A DNA stretch of 64,000 nucleotides from a beta proteobacterium AAP51 (GTDB taxonomy: Bacteria > Pseudomonadota > Gammaproteobacteria > Burkholderiales > Burkholderiaceae_C), in the NCBI GenBank assembly GCA_001295905.1, contig LJHT01000019.1, positions 62,001 through 126,000 of the forward strand, given 5' to 3'. The translations under genes and the position numbers were made by a program. The notes beneath the pieces are model-generated. The model did no database searches. It was not told the DNA's origin and worked only from the letters and a program-made list of their open reading frames with translations. Of the stretch, positions 25,551 to 30,207 are shown piece by piece (position 1 is the stretch's first letter; each line of letters opens with the position of its first letter).

Positions 25551-27149
25551 ATGAAAGACCTGCTGCAACGCATCCTGCGTTTGCTGCCGCCTCGCCTGGC
25601 GCGCTGGCTGCTCGGCCGCCTGATGCGGCCCGCCAGCGGCCGCGCCGAAGGCGCGCTGCCGGGCACCGTGGACGTGCAGGCCACGCCGGTGCCGGAACTG
25701 CCGCTGGCCGCCACGGTGACGGTGGTCATTCCCGCGCTGAATGAAGCCAAGCGCATTGCCAGCGTGGTGGCCTATGCGCTGGCCGACCCCGCCACGGCCG
25801 AAGTGCTGGTCATCGACGACAGCAGCGTGGACGACACCGCCGCCTTGGCAAAGGCCGCCGGTGCGCGCGTCATCACCAGCACCATGCTGGGCAAGGGCGC
25901 TTCCATGCACGACGGTGCCGTGAACGCGCGCCACGAACTGCTGGTCTACCTGGACGGCGACCTGGCCGGCCTGCGCCCCGGCATCGTCACCGACCTCGCG
26001 CGCCCGCTGCTCGCGGGCGAGGCCGACTTCGTCAAGGCCCGCTTCGGCCGTGGCGGCGGGCGTGTCACCGAGCTCACCGCCAAGCCCATGCTGAAGGTGT
26101 TCTTCCCAGAGCTGGCGCACCTGGGCCAGCCCCTGGGCGGCGTCATCTCGGCACGGCGCACGCTGCTGCAGCAGCTGGCCTTCGAAGACGGCTACGGCGT
26201 CGACATCGGCCTGCTGCTGGACGCGCAGCGTGCCGGCGCGCGCGTCGCCGAGGTGGACATCGGCTCGCTCGAACACGACAGCCAGCCCTTGCTGGACCTG
26301 ACGGTGATGGCCAACGAAGTGTCGCGCGTGATCTACAGCCGCGCGCGCGCCGCGGGCCGGCTGCATGTCGACCAGATCGTGGCCATGTACGAAAGCCAGC
26401 GCCAGGCCACGGCCTCGCTCGAATTCATCCTCACGCGCCGCCGCGGCCGCCAGCGCCTGCTGCTGCTGGACATGGACGGCACCCTCACCACCACGCGCTT
26501 CGCGGTGGAGCTGGCGCGCGTCAGCGGGCAGGAGCAGGCCCTGGCCCAGTTGCTGGACAGCCCCACCGACGACGCCCTGGCGCGCAGCGACCGCATCGCG
26601 CAGCTGTTCCGCTTCGTGCACAAGCAGCAGTTCGAGCGCGTGGCGCGGGCCGCGCCCATCCGGCCGGGGGTCATCGAGTTCGTCAACCGCATGCGGCGCG
26701 CCGGCTTCATGGTGGGTGTGCTGAGCGACAGCTATTTCGTGGCCGCCGACATCCTGCGCCGCCGCGTCTTCGCCGACTTCGCGCTCGCCCACACGATGCA
26801 GTTCGACGGCGACGTGTGCAGCGGCCAGGTGAAGATCAACCCCGCCTTCCTGCCGCTGAAGGCCGGCCAGGGCCCGGCGGTGTGCAAGAGCCATGTGCTG
26901 CGCCGCTTCAAGGCGGAAGCCGGCGAACAGCCGCTGCTCGAATGCTGGGCCGTGGGCGACAACCTCAACGACCTGGAACTGCTGCGCCTGGCCGACCAGG
27001 GCTATGCCATCGAACCCAAGGCCGATGCCCTGCGCCGCGAGCCGCGCGTGACCGTGTTAGAAAGTTTCGAGGAACTGCTGGCCCGCGTGCCCGAAGCCCC
27101 GGGGGCGGCCCCACCCCCGCGCCCGGCCGACCACACCCAGGCCGCGTGA
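25551..27149 (+). CDS. Fused GT81-like glycosyltransferase and HAD-family phosphatase
   Basis: 532 residues with two catalytic domains. The N-terminal GT-A domain (about 55-290) has VVIPALNEAKRI, the metal-binding DxD (DGD, about 135-137), GGGRVTELTAKP, FPELAHLGQPLGG and GYGVDIGLL, closely following glucosyl-3-phosphoglycerate synthases (GT81, GpgS). The C-terminal domain (about 302-505) is a SerB-like HAD phosphatase with DMDGT (Asp307/Asp309), LSDSYF and GDNLNDLELL. Both active sites look intact. By analogy, the protein could make a phosphoglycoside from a sugar nucleotide and 3-phosphoglycerate and then remove the phosphate, yielding glucosylglycerate. The substrate is inference. Strong AAGGAGG site; the symporter gene follows after ten bases. 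Confidence 0.8.
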   Translation: MKDLLQRILRLLPPRLARWLLGRLMRPASGRAEGALPGTVDVQATPVPELPLAATVTVVIPALNEAKRIASVVAYALADPATAEVLVIDDSSVDDTAALAKAAGARVITSTMLGKGASMHDGAVNARHELLVYLDGDLAGLRPGIVTDLARPLLAGEADFVKARFGRGGGRVTELTAKPMLKVFFPELAHLGQPLGGVISARRTLLQQLAFEDGYGVDIGLLLDAQRAGARVAEVDIGSLEHDSQPLLDLTVMANEVSRVIYSRARAAGRLHVDQIVAMYESQRQATASLEFILTRRRGRQRLLLLDMDGTLTTTRFAVELARVSGQEQALAQLLDSPTDDALARSDRIAQLFRFVHKQQFERVARAAPIRPGVIEFVNRMRRAGFMVGVLSDSYFVAADILRRRVFADFALAHTMQFDGDVCSGQVKINPAFLPLKAGQGPAVCKSHVLRRFKAEAGEQPLLECWAVGDNLNDLELLRLADQGYAIEPKADALRREPRVTVLESFEELLARVPEAPGAAPPPRPADHTQAA

Positions 27150-27159
27150 GGCCTGCGCC

Positions 27160-28752: not shown

Positions 28753-28827
28753 GCCCGGCTGACCGCTCCGCCACCTGCGCATCCCGCCTGCGTCTTCCTT
28801 CTCAACCTCGCCCACCAGAAAACGCCG

Positions 28828-30207
28828 ATGTCCCTGCGCCAGTTCATAGCCACCCGAGCGCTGCTGAAGACCCTCAGCGCCATCAAGAACAGCATCCTCT
28901 ACTCCTGGGAAGAAGCCGCCCGCATCCTGGGCCTGGACGAAGACCTCTACACCCACCCGCTGCACCGGGAACTCGACCGGCCGGTGCGTGTGATCCTGAT
29001 CGGTGCCGGCAACCGCGGCGGCATCTACGCCGACTACGCCACCAAGAGCCCGCGCGAGATGCGCGTGGTGGGCGTGGCCGAACCCAACGGCGCGCGGCGC
29101 AGGCGCATCGCCGCGGCCCATGGCATCCCGCCCGAGCGTTGTTTCACCGACTGGAAGCAGGTCTTCGAAGGCGGGCCGCCCTGGGCCGATGCGGTGATCA
29201 TCGCCACGCCCGACCGCCTGCACACCGCACCCTGCTTGCGCGCGCTGGAGCTGGGCTACGACGTGCTGCTGGAGAAGCCCGCCGCGCCCACCGAGGCCGA
29301 GTGCCGGCAGATCCTGGCGGCAGCCCAGGCCAGCGGGCGCATCGTGGGCGTGTGCCACGTGCTGCGCTACACGCCCTATTTCCGCGAGCTGAAGGCACTC
29401 ATCGACGGCGGCATGATCGGCCAGGTCATCAGCGTGCAGCACATGGAGCCCATCGAGCACGTGCACATGAGCCACAGCTACGTGCGCGGGCACTGGCGCA
29501 AGTCGGAAGACACCACGCCCATCATCCTGGCCAAGAGCTGCCACGACACCGACATCCTGCGCTGGCTGGTGGGCGCGCCGGCGGCCGAGGTGCATTGCTA
29601 CGGCAACCTGAAGTGGTTCAAGCAGGCCAATGCGCCCGAGGGCAGCACCCCGCGCTGCACCGATGGCTGCAAGGTCGAGCCCGAGTGCCCCTATTCGGCC
29701 CTGCAGATCTACTACCGCGACCGCAAGCGCCTGTATGTCTTCGACCTGCCTGCGGATGCATCGAAGTGGGGCCCGCTCATCCTTCAGGGGCTGCAGACCA
29801 CCGACTACGGCCGCTGCGTCTACCGCATGGACAACGACCAGCCCGACCACCTCACGGCCAACATCCTGTTCTCCAACGGCGTGACGGCGGGCTTCAGCAT
29901 GGAAGCCTTCGTCAGCTACGAGGGCCGGCGCACGCGCATCATGGGCAGCATGGGCGACATCGTCGGCGACATGGAAAGCTTCACGCTCACCAGCTTCAAG
30001 GATGGCAAGCGCCGCAGCTGGAGCATGAAGACCGATGCCCACGGCGGCGGCGACCACCGCATGGTGAAAGACTGGGTGCAGGCCGTGGGCCAGCGCAACC
30101 CGGCGCTGCTGAGTTCACCCATCGAGGTGAGCGTGGAGAGCCACCTCATCGCCTACGCGGCGGAGAAGAGCCGCGTGAACCGCACCATCGAAACGGTGCA
30201 GATGTAG
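28828..30207 (+). CDS. Gfo/Idh/MocA family NAD(P)-dependent oxidoreductase
   Basis: 459 residues, longer than the usual 330-380. After an N-terminal extension of about 50 residues comes the Rossmann fold (VILIGAGNRGGIYA, about 53-66), then LEKPAAPTEAE (about 150, catalytic Lys region) and the substrate domain with HSYVRGHWR and KSCHDTDILRW, which hold the His/Asp pair of the family. A cysteine-rich insert (PRCTDGCKVEPECPYS, about 271-286) has three cysteines at close spacing; metal binding is possible but unproven. Related proteins act on sugars or inositols, and some are NAD-dependent glycosidases (GH109-like). Probably part of the preceding gene set. Confidence 0.85.
   Translation: MSLRQFIATRALLKTLSAIKNSILYSWEEAARILGLDEDLYTHPLHRELDRPVRVILIGAGNRGGIYADYATKSPREMRVVGVAEPNGARRRRIAAAHGIPPERCFTDWKQVFEGGPPWADAVIIATPDRLHTAPCLRALELGYDVLLEKPAAPTEAECRQILAAAQASGRIVGVCHVLRYTPYFRELKALIDGGMIGQVISVQHMEPIEHVHMSHSYVRGHWRKSEDTTPIILAKSCHDTDILRWLVGAPAAEVHCYGNLKWFKQANAPEGSTPRCTDGCKVEPECPYSALQIYYRDRKRLYVFDLPADASKWGPLILQGLQTTDYGRCVYRMDNDQPDHLTANILFSNGVTAGFSMEAFVSYEGRRTRIMGSMGDIVGDMESFTLTSFKDGKRRSWSMKTDAHGGGDHRMVKDWVQAVGQRNPALLSSPIEVSVESHLIAYAAEKSRVNRTIETVQM

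Follow-up and report, generated by a model that had tools for sequence, protein, structure and literature searches.

A fused GT81-type glycosyltransferase and HAD-IB phosphatase in beta proteobacterium AAP51 as a possible source of a hexosyl-glycerate osmolyte

Fusions of a synthase with a phosphatase for the making of compatible solutes are already known, as in MgsD and GgpPS. For the glucosyl-3-phosphoglycerate synthase GpgS of Mycobacterium tuberculosis, PMC2581804 assigns nucleotide and metal binding to Glu54, Lys114, the Asp134-x-Asp136 motif and His258 and binding of the acceptor carboxylate to Val186-Thr187, suspects the loop beta6-alpha6 of further contacts with 3-phosphoglycerate, and says of a serine in the donor site that it disfavours mannose. 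Here, a gene in which a GT81-like glycosyltransferase is joined to a HAD-IB phosphatase was studied in a window of 64,000 nucleotides, the whole stretch of DNA analysed, from the genome of beta proteobacterium AAP51 (5.1 Mb in 144 contigs; GCA_001295905.1, contig LJHT01000019.1, positions 62,001 to 126,000). We put at about even the chance that the encoded protein works in two steps, as synthase and phosphatase in one, and makes an anionic osmolyte of the hexosyl-glycerate kind, which would probably be glucosylglycerate.

In the proposed reaction sequence, the GT81-type domain would take a hexose (most likely glucose) from an NDP-sugar and attach it, with retention, to a glycerate-type molecule at the 2-hydroxyl; this acceptor is most likely 3-phosphoglycerate. 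The fused HAD-IB domain would then remove the phosphate, and the resulting hexosyl-glycerate would serve as a compatible solute. Where the gene stands in an operon of the Rubrivivax type, a symporter would probably recover leaked or external solute and an oxidoreductase of NAD type would probably start its turnover at the sugar ring. The fusion gene has the following parts.

25539 to 25546, + strand: likely ribosome-binding site AAGGAGGG of the fusion gene, read directly, before the ATG
25551 to 27149, + strand: fused GT81-like glycosyltransferase/HAD-IB phosphatase, 532 amino acids (Pfam, NCBIfam and PDB matches, AlphaFold2 model)
25551 to 25628, + strand: arginine-rich amphipathic N-terminal helices, residues 2-11 and 14-25, then a disordered stretch (AlphaFold2 model)
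25707 to 26399, + strand: glycosyltransferase domain, residues 53-283 (NF010496; GpgS and MpgS of the PDB by sequence and fold)
26052 to 26075, + strand: GGGRVTEL, motif of the acceptor site (residues 168-175); GpgS and MpgS have a loop of 11-14 residues immediately ahead of it, which is lacking here
26448 to 27035, + strand: HAD-IB phosphatase domain, residues 300-495 (Pfam, NCBIfam, Foldseek, SerB alignment)
26469 to 26483, + strand: DMDGT (residues 307-311), the motif with the HAD nucleophile, preserved in the window protein

The original prediction had placed at 25551-27149 a glycosyltransferase with GpgS motifs joined to a SerB-like HAD phosphatase, and profiles, PDB matches and fold agree with it. 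GpgS and MpgS came out best for the N-terminal domain by sequence and by fold, and residues 305-479 matched Pfam HAD with 48.1 bits against a cut-off of 27. Residues 57-198 match Pfam Glycos_transf_2, and the best NCBIfam family for residues 53-282 is GpgS (NF010496, 187.4 bits), the next family reaching 68.3 bits. Seven distinct PDB sequences match the N-terminal domain at E <1e-27; one is MpgS of Rubrobacter xylanophilus and six are mycobacterial. Five of these six bear GpgS in their name or title, and the sixth (3ckj) is called only 'mycobacterial protein'. The AlphaFold2 model of the fusion, made from 53 sequences, has a pLDDT of 89.4, and among its best 50 Foldseek matches the first 41 are titled GpgS, MpgS or (3ckj, 3ckq, 4y6u) only mycobacterial protein, chains of SerB coming next. 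As judged from sequence and predicted fold, the domain is of the GT81 type. A profile search of the window's genome for a canonical GpgS elsewhere gave a single other match, of 43 bits.

The residues of M. tuberculosis GpgS were mapped onto the fusion via phmmer alignments and followed through the 53 sequences of a first alignment or through 64, which are those and 11 further fusion sequences. Glu65, Lys115 and Asp135, the counterparts of Glu54, Lys114 and Asp134, are kept in all 64, Asp137 (for Asp136) in 63 and the counterpart of Tyr229 in 60. Val172-Thr173, corresponding to the pair that binds the carboxylate, is present throughout, and GRVTEL, QPLGG and Gly-Val-Asp218 are likewise invariant in the 64 sequences. 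His242, the counterpart of the metal ligand His258, is found in 57 and replaced by Asn in seven; the window protein has the His, and its nucleotide and metal residues are all present. The sequences with Asn (L036, L042, L044, L046, L056, L132 and L133) have HAD domains that are intact or, as far as read, not decayed, and the change is the same as that in R. xylanophilus MpgS.

In the phosphatase domain, Foldseek on the predicted model found the fold of SerB, while the match to TIGR01488 (43.1 bits) stayed just below the cut-off of 45 and that to the NCBIfam serB model (45.9 bits) did not pass the cut-off of 144.15. The HAD motifs of the window protein are all intact, namely DMDGT (DxD), SDS (Ser), Lys446 and GDNLND, which we take to be the DxDxT motif, the motif II Ser, the motif III Lys and the GDxxND motif of HAD-IB. 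That both domains have kept their catalytic residues, as predicted, is thus seen in this protein. A primary function as phosphoserine phosphatase was considered and rejected: residue 316, aligned with a Glu of SerB that is presumably the ligand of the phosphoserine amine, is Arg in 47 of 53 fusions and Glu in one, which argues against phosphoserine as the substrate.

An osmotic role is suggested by the neighbours of the fusion gene in 61 distinct loci, of which 47 have 5 kb on both sides. A relative of one particular MarR protein lies within 5 kb in 24 loci, a ClC transporter (>40% identity) in 15 and a member of at least one of five ion-transporter types in 28; without hits of <40% identity L119 and L120 drop out and 26 remain. 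In Methylomonas, the fusion gene stands between MarR and NhaD (NhaD_1, 594 bits, cut-off 80) on the one side and a Na+/H+ exchanger-family protein on the other. As a control, the whole genomes of 29 carriers were searched: 16 genomes held 17 copies of ClC, 10 of them no more than 5 kb from the fusion, and 16 genomes held 17 copies of this MarR, nine of them as close, where random placement would give about 0.3% each (reckoned for 7 kb to the left and right of a single site in 4.5 Mb). The contrast is inflated by the kinship of the genomes, by queries picked from such neighbourhoods and by the overlap of these genomes with the 61 loci, though together these hardly account for the degree of clustering. 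Linkage with genes of osmotic or ion homeostasis recurs across the fusion family, not at the window's locus. According to PMC7876524, the MarR regulators EctR1 and CosR repress compatible-solute operons in other bacteria. The linked MarR was not identified as a CosR or EctR in a comparison with NCBIfam models, none of which scored over its cut-off. In two genomes, MarR and ClC are paired though the fusion lies elsewhere (G1022:C12:50832-53915 and G980:C4:260270-262178), suggesting that the pair is a module in its own right to which the fusion has been added.

In the genome searches only the best few candidates per genome were scored, and matches spanning most of the protein were counted. At 1e-60, the fusion was detected in 13 of 60 genomes of the genus and 9 of 250 of the family. 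In the order sample, 13 of 399 genomes, the window's own included, matched over most of the length at E <=5e-108, the next best match being at 1e-17, and in the phylum the fusion alignment at 1e-40 matched 1 of 398 genomes, the window's own. A single GTDB contig scan yielded 46 loci outside the window's genome, with Rubrivivax, Limnohabitans and Polynucleobacter among them; by title they are mostly Burkholderiales, plus three Methylomonas and one bin titled Silanimonas. Five records were returned from a plasmid collection, none spanning 80% of the query.

Two genes follow the fusion in the window.

27160 to 28752, + strand: sodium:solute symporter, 530 amino acids (TIGR00813 over cut-off, PF00474)
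28828 to 30207, + strand: Gfo/Idh/MocA oxidoreductase, 459 amino acids (PF01408, PF22725, PF02894)

A symporter ten bases on and a long Gfo/Idh/MocA oxidoreductase behind it had been predicted; the starts and the family scores, over cut-off for both, bear this out. The symporter starts 10 bases after the fusion stop and the oxidoreductase lies 75 bases beyond the symporter stop, all three genes being on the + strand. A test for this order in other Burkholderiales had also been advised; it recurs in 11 of the 46 loci (L034, L036-L040, L042, L044, L048, L069 and L076), some contigs ending near the fusion. L035 has the fusion and then the oxidoreductase, the symporter being absent; in L079 the symporter is beside the fusion and the oxidoreductase 3.4 kb off on the opposite strand; in L045, L059 and L063 the symporter accompanies the fusion and this oxidoreductase is missing. 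Among the 60 genomes of the genus, the oxidoreductase (1e-60) was present in nine, eight with the fusion (Fisher p 4e-6), and the symporter (1e-100) in ten, nine with the fusion (p 4.5e-7), both values uncorrected for kinship. The sole exception for both companions is G1033, whose contig of 4187 bases ends within the symporter.

The symporter scored 214.1 bits with TIGR00813 (cut-off 184) and 143.2 with PF00474 (cut-off 22.8). Its nearest relatives in the PDB are the sodium/iodide cotransporter, the putative sodium:solute symporter 5nv9 and multivitamin and monocarboxylate transporters, with glucose cotransporters ranking after these. Several of these transporters carry anions, which would suit a sugar acid as the substrate. 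The oxidoreductase matches PF01408 with 70.4 bits (cut-off 24) and has homologues in 26 records of the plasmid collection, at about 40-46% identity in the best 20 of the 26. Five homologue loci were inspected; four have sugar or carbohydrate ABC transporters, and the ABC transporter in Thermus is of a different type. In three of the five a glycosidase adjoins: Deinococcus psychrotolerans has an alpha-glucosidase/alpha-galactosidase, Thermus a family 4 hydrolase and Paenibacillus a beta-galactosidase. By analogy with these sugar-use loci the enzyme probably acts on a sugar ring and may be a 3-dehydrogenase. Homologues from several phyla agree in four cysteines (277, 281, 287 and 330), which are conserved in 12 of 12 and may form a metal site. 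The predicted model of the oxidoreductase has a pLDDT of 49 and is too poor for a fold search that would compare it with the NAD-dependent glycosidases of Gfo/Idh/MocA fold. PF22422 (MGH1-like hydrolase), which we take to be the family of the known glucosylglycerate hydrolases, had no match in the window's genome at 0.001, the control being positive in 7 of 14 genomes.

Several observations in the glycosyltransferase, the phosphatase and the surroundings of the gene weigh against the two-step reading. In the glycosyltransferase, the GpgS score of 187.4 bits (189.6 in the genome search) does not pass the curated equivalog cut-off of 262, and the loop ahead of GGGRVTEL, which occurs in all five GpgS/MpgS alignments examined, is absent in 53 of 53 fusions. 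The PLSGE donor loop of M. tuberculosis GpgS reads PLGG[ILV] in the same 53, and Asn260 and Arg261 align with Ser244 (52/53) and Gln245 (49/53). Because it falls short of the cut-off and lacks both the loop and PLSGE, the domain is not certified as a GpgS. For the glycoside-solute pathway first proposed, an osmotic role fits the neighbourhoods; 3-phosphoglycerate as the acceptor, glucose as the donor and the parts played by transporter and oxidoreductase stay proposals. The missing loop, suspected of acceptor contacts, would suit a one-step synthase in which the glycosyltransferase has switched to free D-glycerate like MgS of Rhodothermus, the HAD domain either freeing glycerate from 3-phosphoglycerate or becoming a structural remnant; we judge this rather unlikely. 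Asp218, which stands in 64 of 64 where M. tuberculosis GpgS has Glu232, points the same way, as MgS too has Asp there. PLGG, however, is no marker, since PLGGE is also present in GpgS of M. hassiacum (7pdo), and other residues, such as the Arg167 of 52 of 53 fusions, could hold the phosphate.

The donor site bears on a different alternative, that the same chemistry is applied to another sugar or to another small hydroxy-acid acceptor and the product, for example mannosyl-glycerate or glucosyl-glycolate, is still an anionic osmolyte. The serine said to disfavour mannose (PMC2581804) is Gly in the window protein, and MpgS of R. xylanophilus scores nearly as well as GpgS. Against this, the Gly is shared by GpgS of M. 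hassiacum (7pdo) and GpgS is the best family by profile, and we consider other substrates fairly improbable.

The phosphatase was scored as dead where Asp307, Asp309 or Lys446 was lost. This was so in 7 of the 53 sequences of the first alignment, with at least five changes on the tree of the glycosyltransferase domain, and in 11 of 64 (L007, L008, L015, L016, L060, L070, L071, L108, L134, L135 and L136), with at least eight changes, several branches of the tree being weakly supported. The core glycosyltransferase residues are intact in all of them, and ten of the eleven dead domains are less like their nearest intact relative than the identity of the glycosyltransferase predicts (z -1.3 to -4.9; L016 is the exception at +1.1). 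Such losses favour the one-step synthase; against it, 53 of 64 keep a HAD domain not scored as dead, L072 being counted among these with an incomplete sequence and its HAD unscored. The claim that both steps are in one chain thus stands for the motifs of the window's own protein, while the decay of the phosphatase in the 11 weakens it as a rule for the family. Genome G897 has two fusion copies, L135 and L136, both with a dead HAD. In Rubrivivax ACE_PRO12 two copies share a contig, L043 being intact and L060 having D307S. The fusion gene of L136 (6374-8233), its HAD shortened, and a Na+/H+ exchanger-family gene at 8112-9353 overlap at their 3' ends. The contig of L071, titled Bordetella parapertussis, is from a metagenome bin; its fusion groups with Polynucleobacter and Zwartia, and the title may be misassigned.

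As to the surroundings, 18 of the 61 loci are without any of the neighbour types, symporter or oxidoreductase. The window's own locus has no adjoining MarR or ClC, and in its genome ClC is on another contig and no relative of this MarR was found at 1e-10. The oxidoreductase was found at 1e-60 in 1 of the 399 genomes of the order, namely that of the window, whereas the fusion is carried by 12 more, so the oxidoreductase looks like a clade-specific addition. The 18 loci are what might be expected if the glycosyltransferase made a glycolipid or glycan of the envelope, the HAD domain trimming a phosphorylated intermediate and the ion-transport neighbours being incidental. The amphipathic N-terminus of the window protein could then bind the membrane; residues 2-13 have a hydrophobic moment of about 0.55, and no more than 4 of 53 sequences, the window protein included, reach 40% identity in the N-terminal helices. 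We hold this non-osmotic role to be very unlikely, as ClC, MarR and antiporters cluster with the fusion in divergent lineages, no Pfam membrane domain is found within the protein and the GRVTEL carboxylate site is invariant.

A broader scenario, which we regard as quite doubtful, would have a GT81 family shifted to free D-glycerate by the loss of the loop and making its osmolyte in one step under salt control linked to MarR and the chloride transporter, with the phosphatase repeatedly becoming a pseudo-phosphatase. In one clade the symporter and the NAD-type oxidoreductase would then substitute for the PF22422 hydrolase, together recovering the solute and breaking it down.

Upstream of the fusion gene, 217 bases are free. 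Its product has as nearest named relative a protein of Beta proteobacterium AAP65, at 89% identity in an alignment from residue 1. Seven upstream stretches were aligned for a shared operator, and little was conserved beyond the GGAGG-start region of the nearest relative. The gene directly upstream (24365-25333) encodes a methyltransferase-like protein, below Pfam cut-offs and unmatched in the other fusion loci. Farther upstream, at 19738-23454, the gene of a hybrid histidine kinase with HAMP, HisKA, HATPase and receiver domains faces that of a LuxR-type response regulator; the kinase is unmatched in other loci, and the regulator was matched only in L039, at 28% and >5 kb off. The next gene after the operon (30277-32838, - strand) encodes a lamin-tail/Exo_endo_phos protein, which its family marks as a nuclease; L034, L035 (partial), L036 and L076 have relatives of it at the corresponding position.

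No description of a GpgS-HAD-IB fusion, and no paper linking glucosyl-3-phosphoglycerate with Rubrivivax, was found in a literature search by titles and abstract openings, with most subscription journals outside its coverage. If the two-step reading is true, a sugar-acid osmolyte route of which that search turned up no description would exist in freshwater Burkholderiales (Limnohabitans, Polynucleobacter, Rubrivivax) and in Methylomonas, and one gene would be a source of a protein-stabilising solute. The family is also a natural experiment in the loss of a fused phosphatase, the core glycosyltransferase residues being invariant in 64 of 64 while the phosphatase decayed at least eight times, and the missing loop gives a testable rule for phosphorylated versus free glycerate as the acceptor.

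Compared with known systems, the window protein shares with GpgS (GT81; M. tuberculosis, M. hassiacum) the fold, about 39% identity over 232 columns (4y6n), the metal motif, the Lys, the carboxylate-binding Val-Thr and the GYGV motif, and differs from it in the fused HAD, the want of the loop, the changes of Glu232 to Asp and PLSGE to PLGG[ILV], and the score below the cut-off of NF010496. R. xylanophilus MpgS (3f1y, 3kia, 3o3p) has 35% identity by fold alignment and the motif GGGRVTELTAKP, but possesses the loop, and its solved chain of 387 residues matches the glycosyltransferase part only. SerB of HAD-IB resembles the second domain in fold and catalytic motifs and differs in the Glu aligned with Arg316. 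Two fusions were compared by description only, from PMC8490865 and PMC10873239. MgsD of Dehalococcoides mccartyi has synthase and phosphatase in one protein and a sugar-glycerate product, which in its case is mannosylglycerate from GDP-mannose (PMC8490865). GgpPS of Marinobacter and Stenotrophomonas is a fused phosphatase/synthase for a compatible solute, with a turnover gene adjoining in Marinobacter, but has the phosphatase first and makes glucosylglycerol (PMC10873239). By analogy, the fusion in the window would work as these two do.

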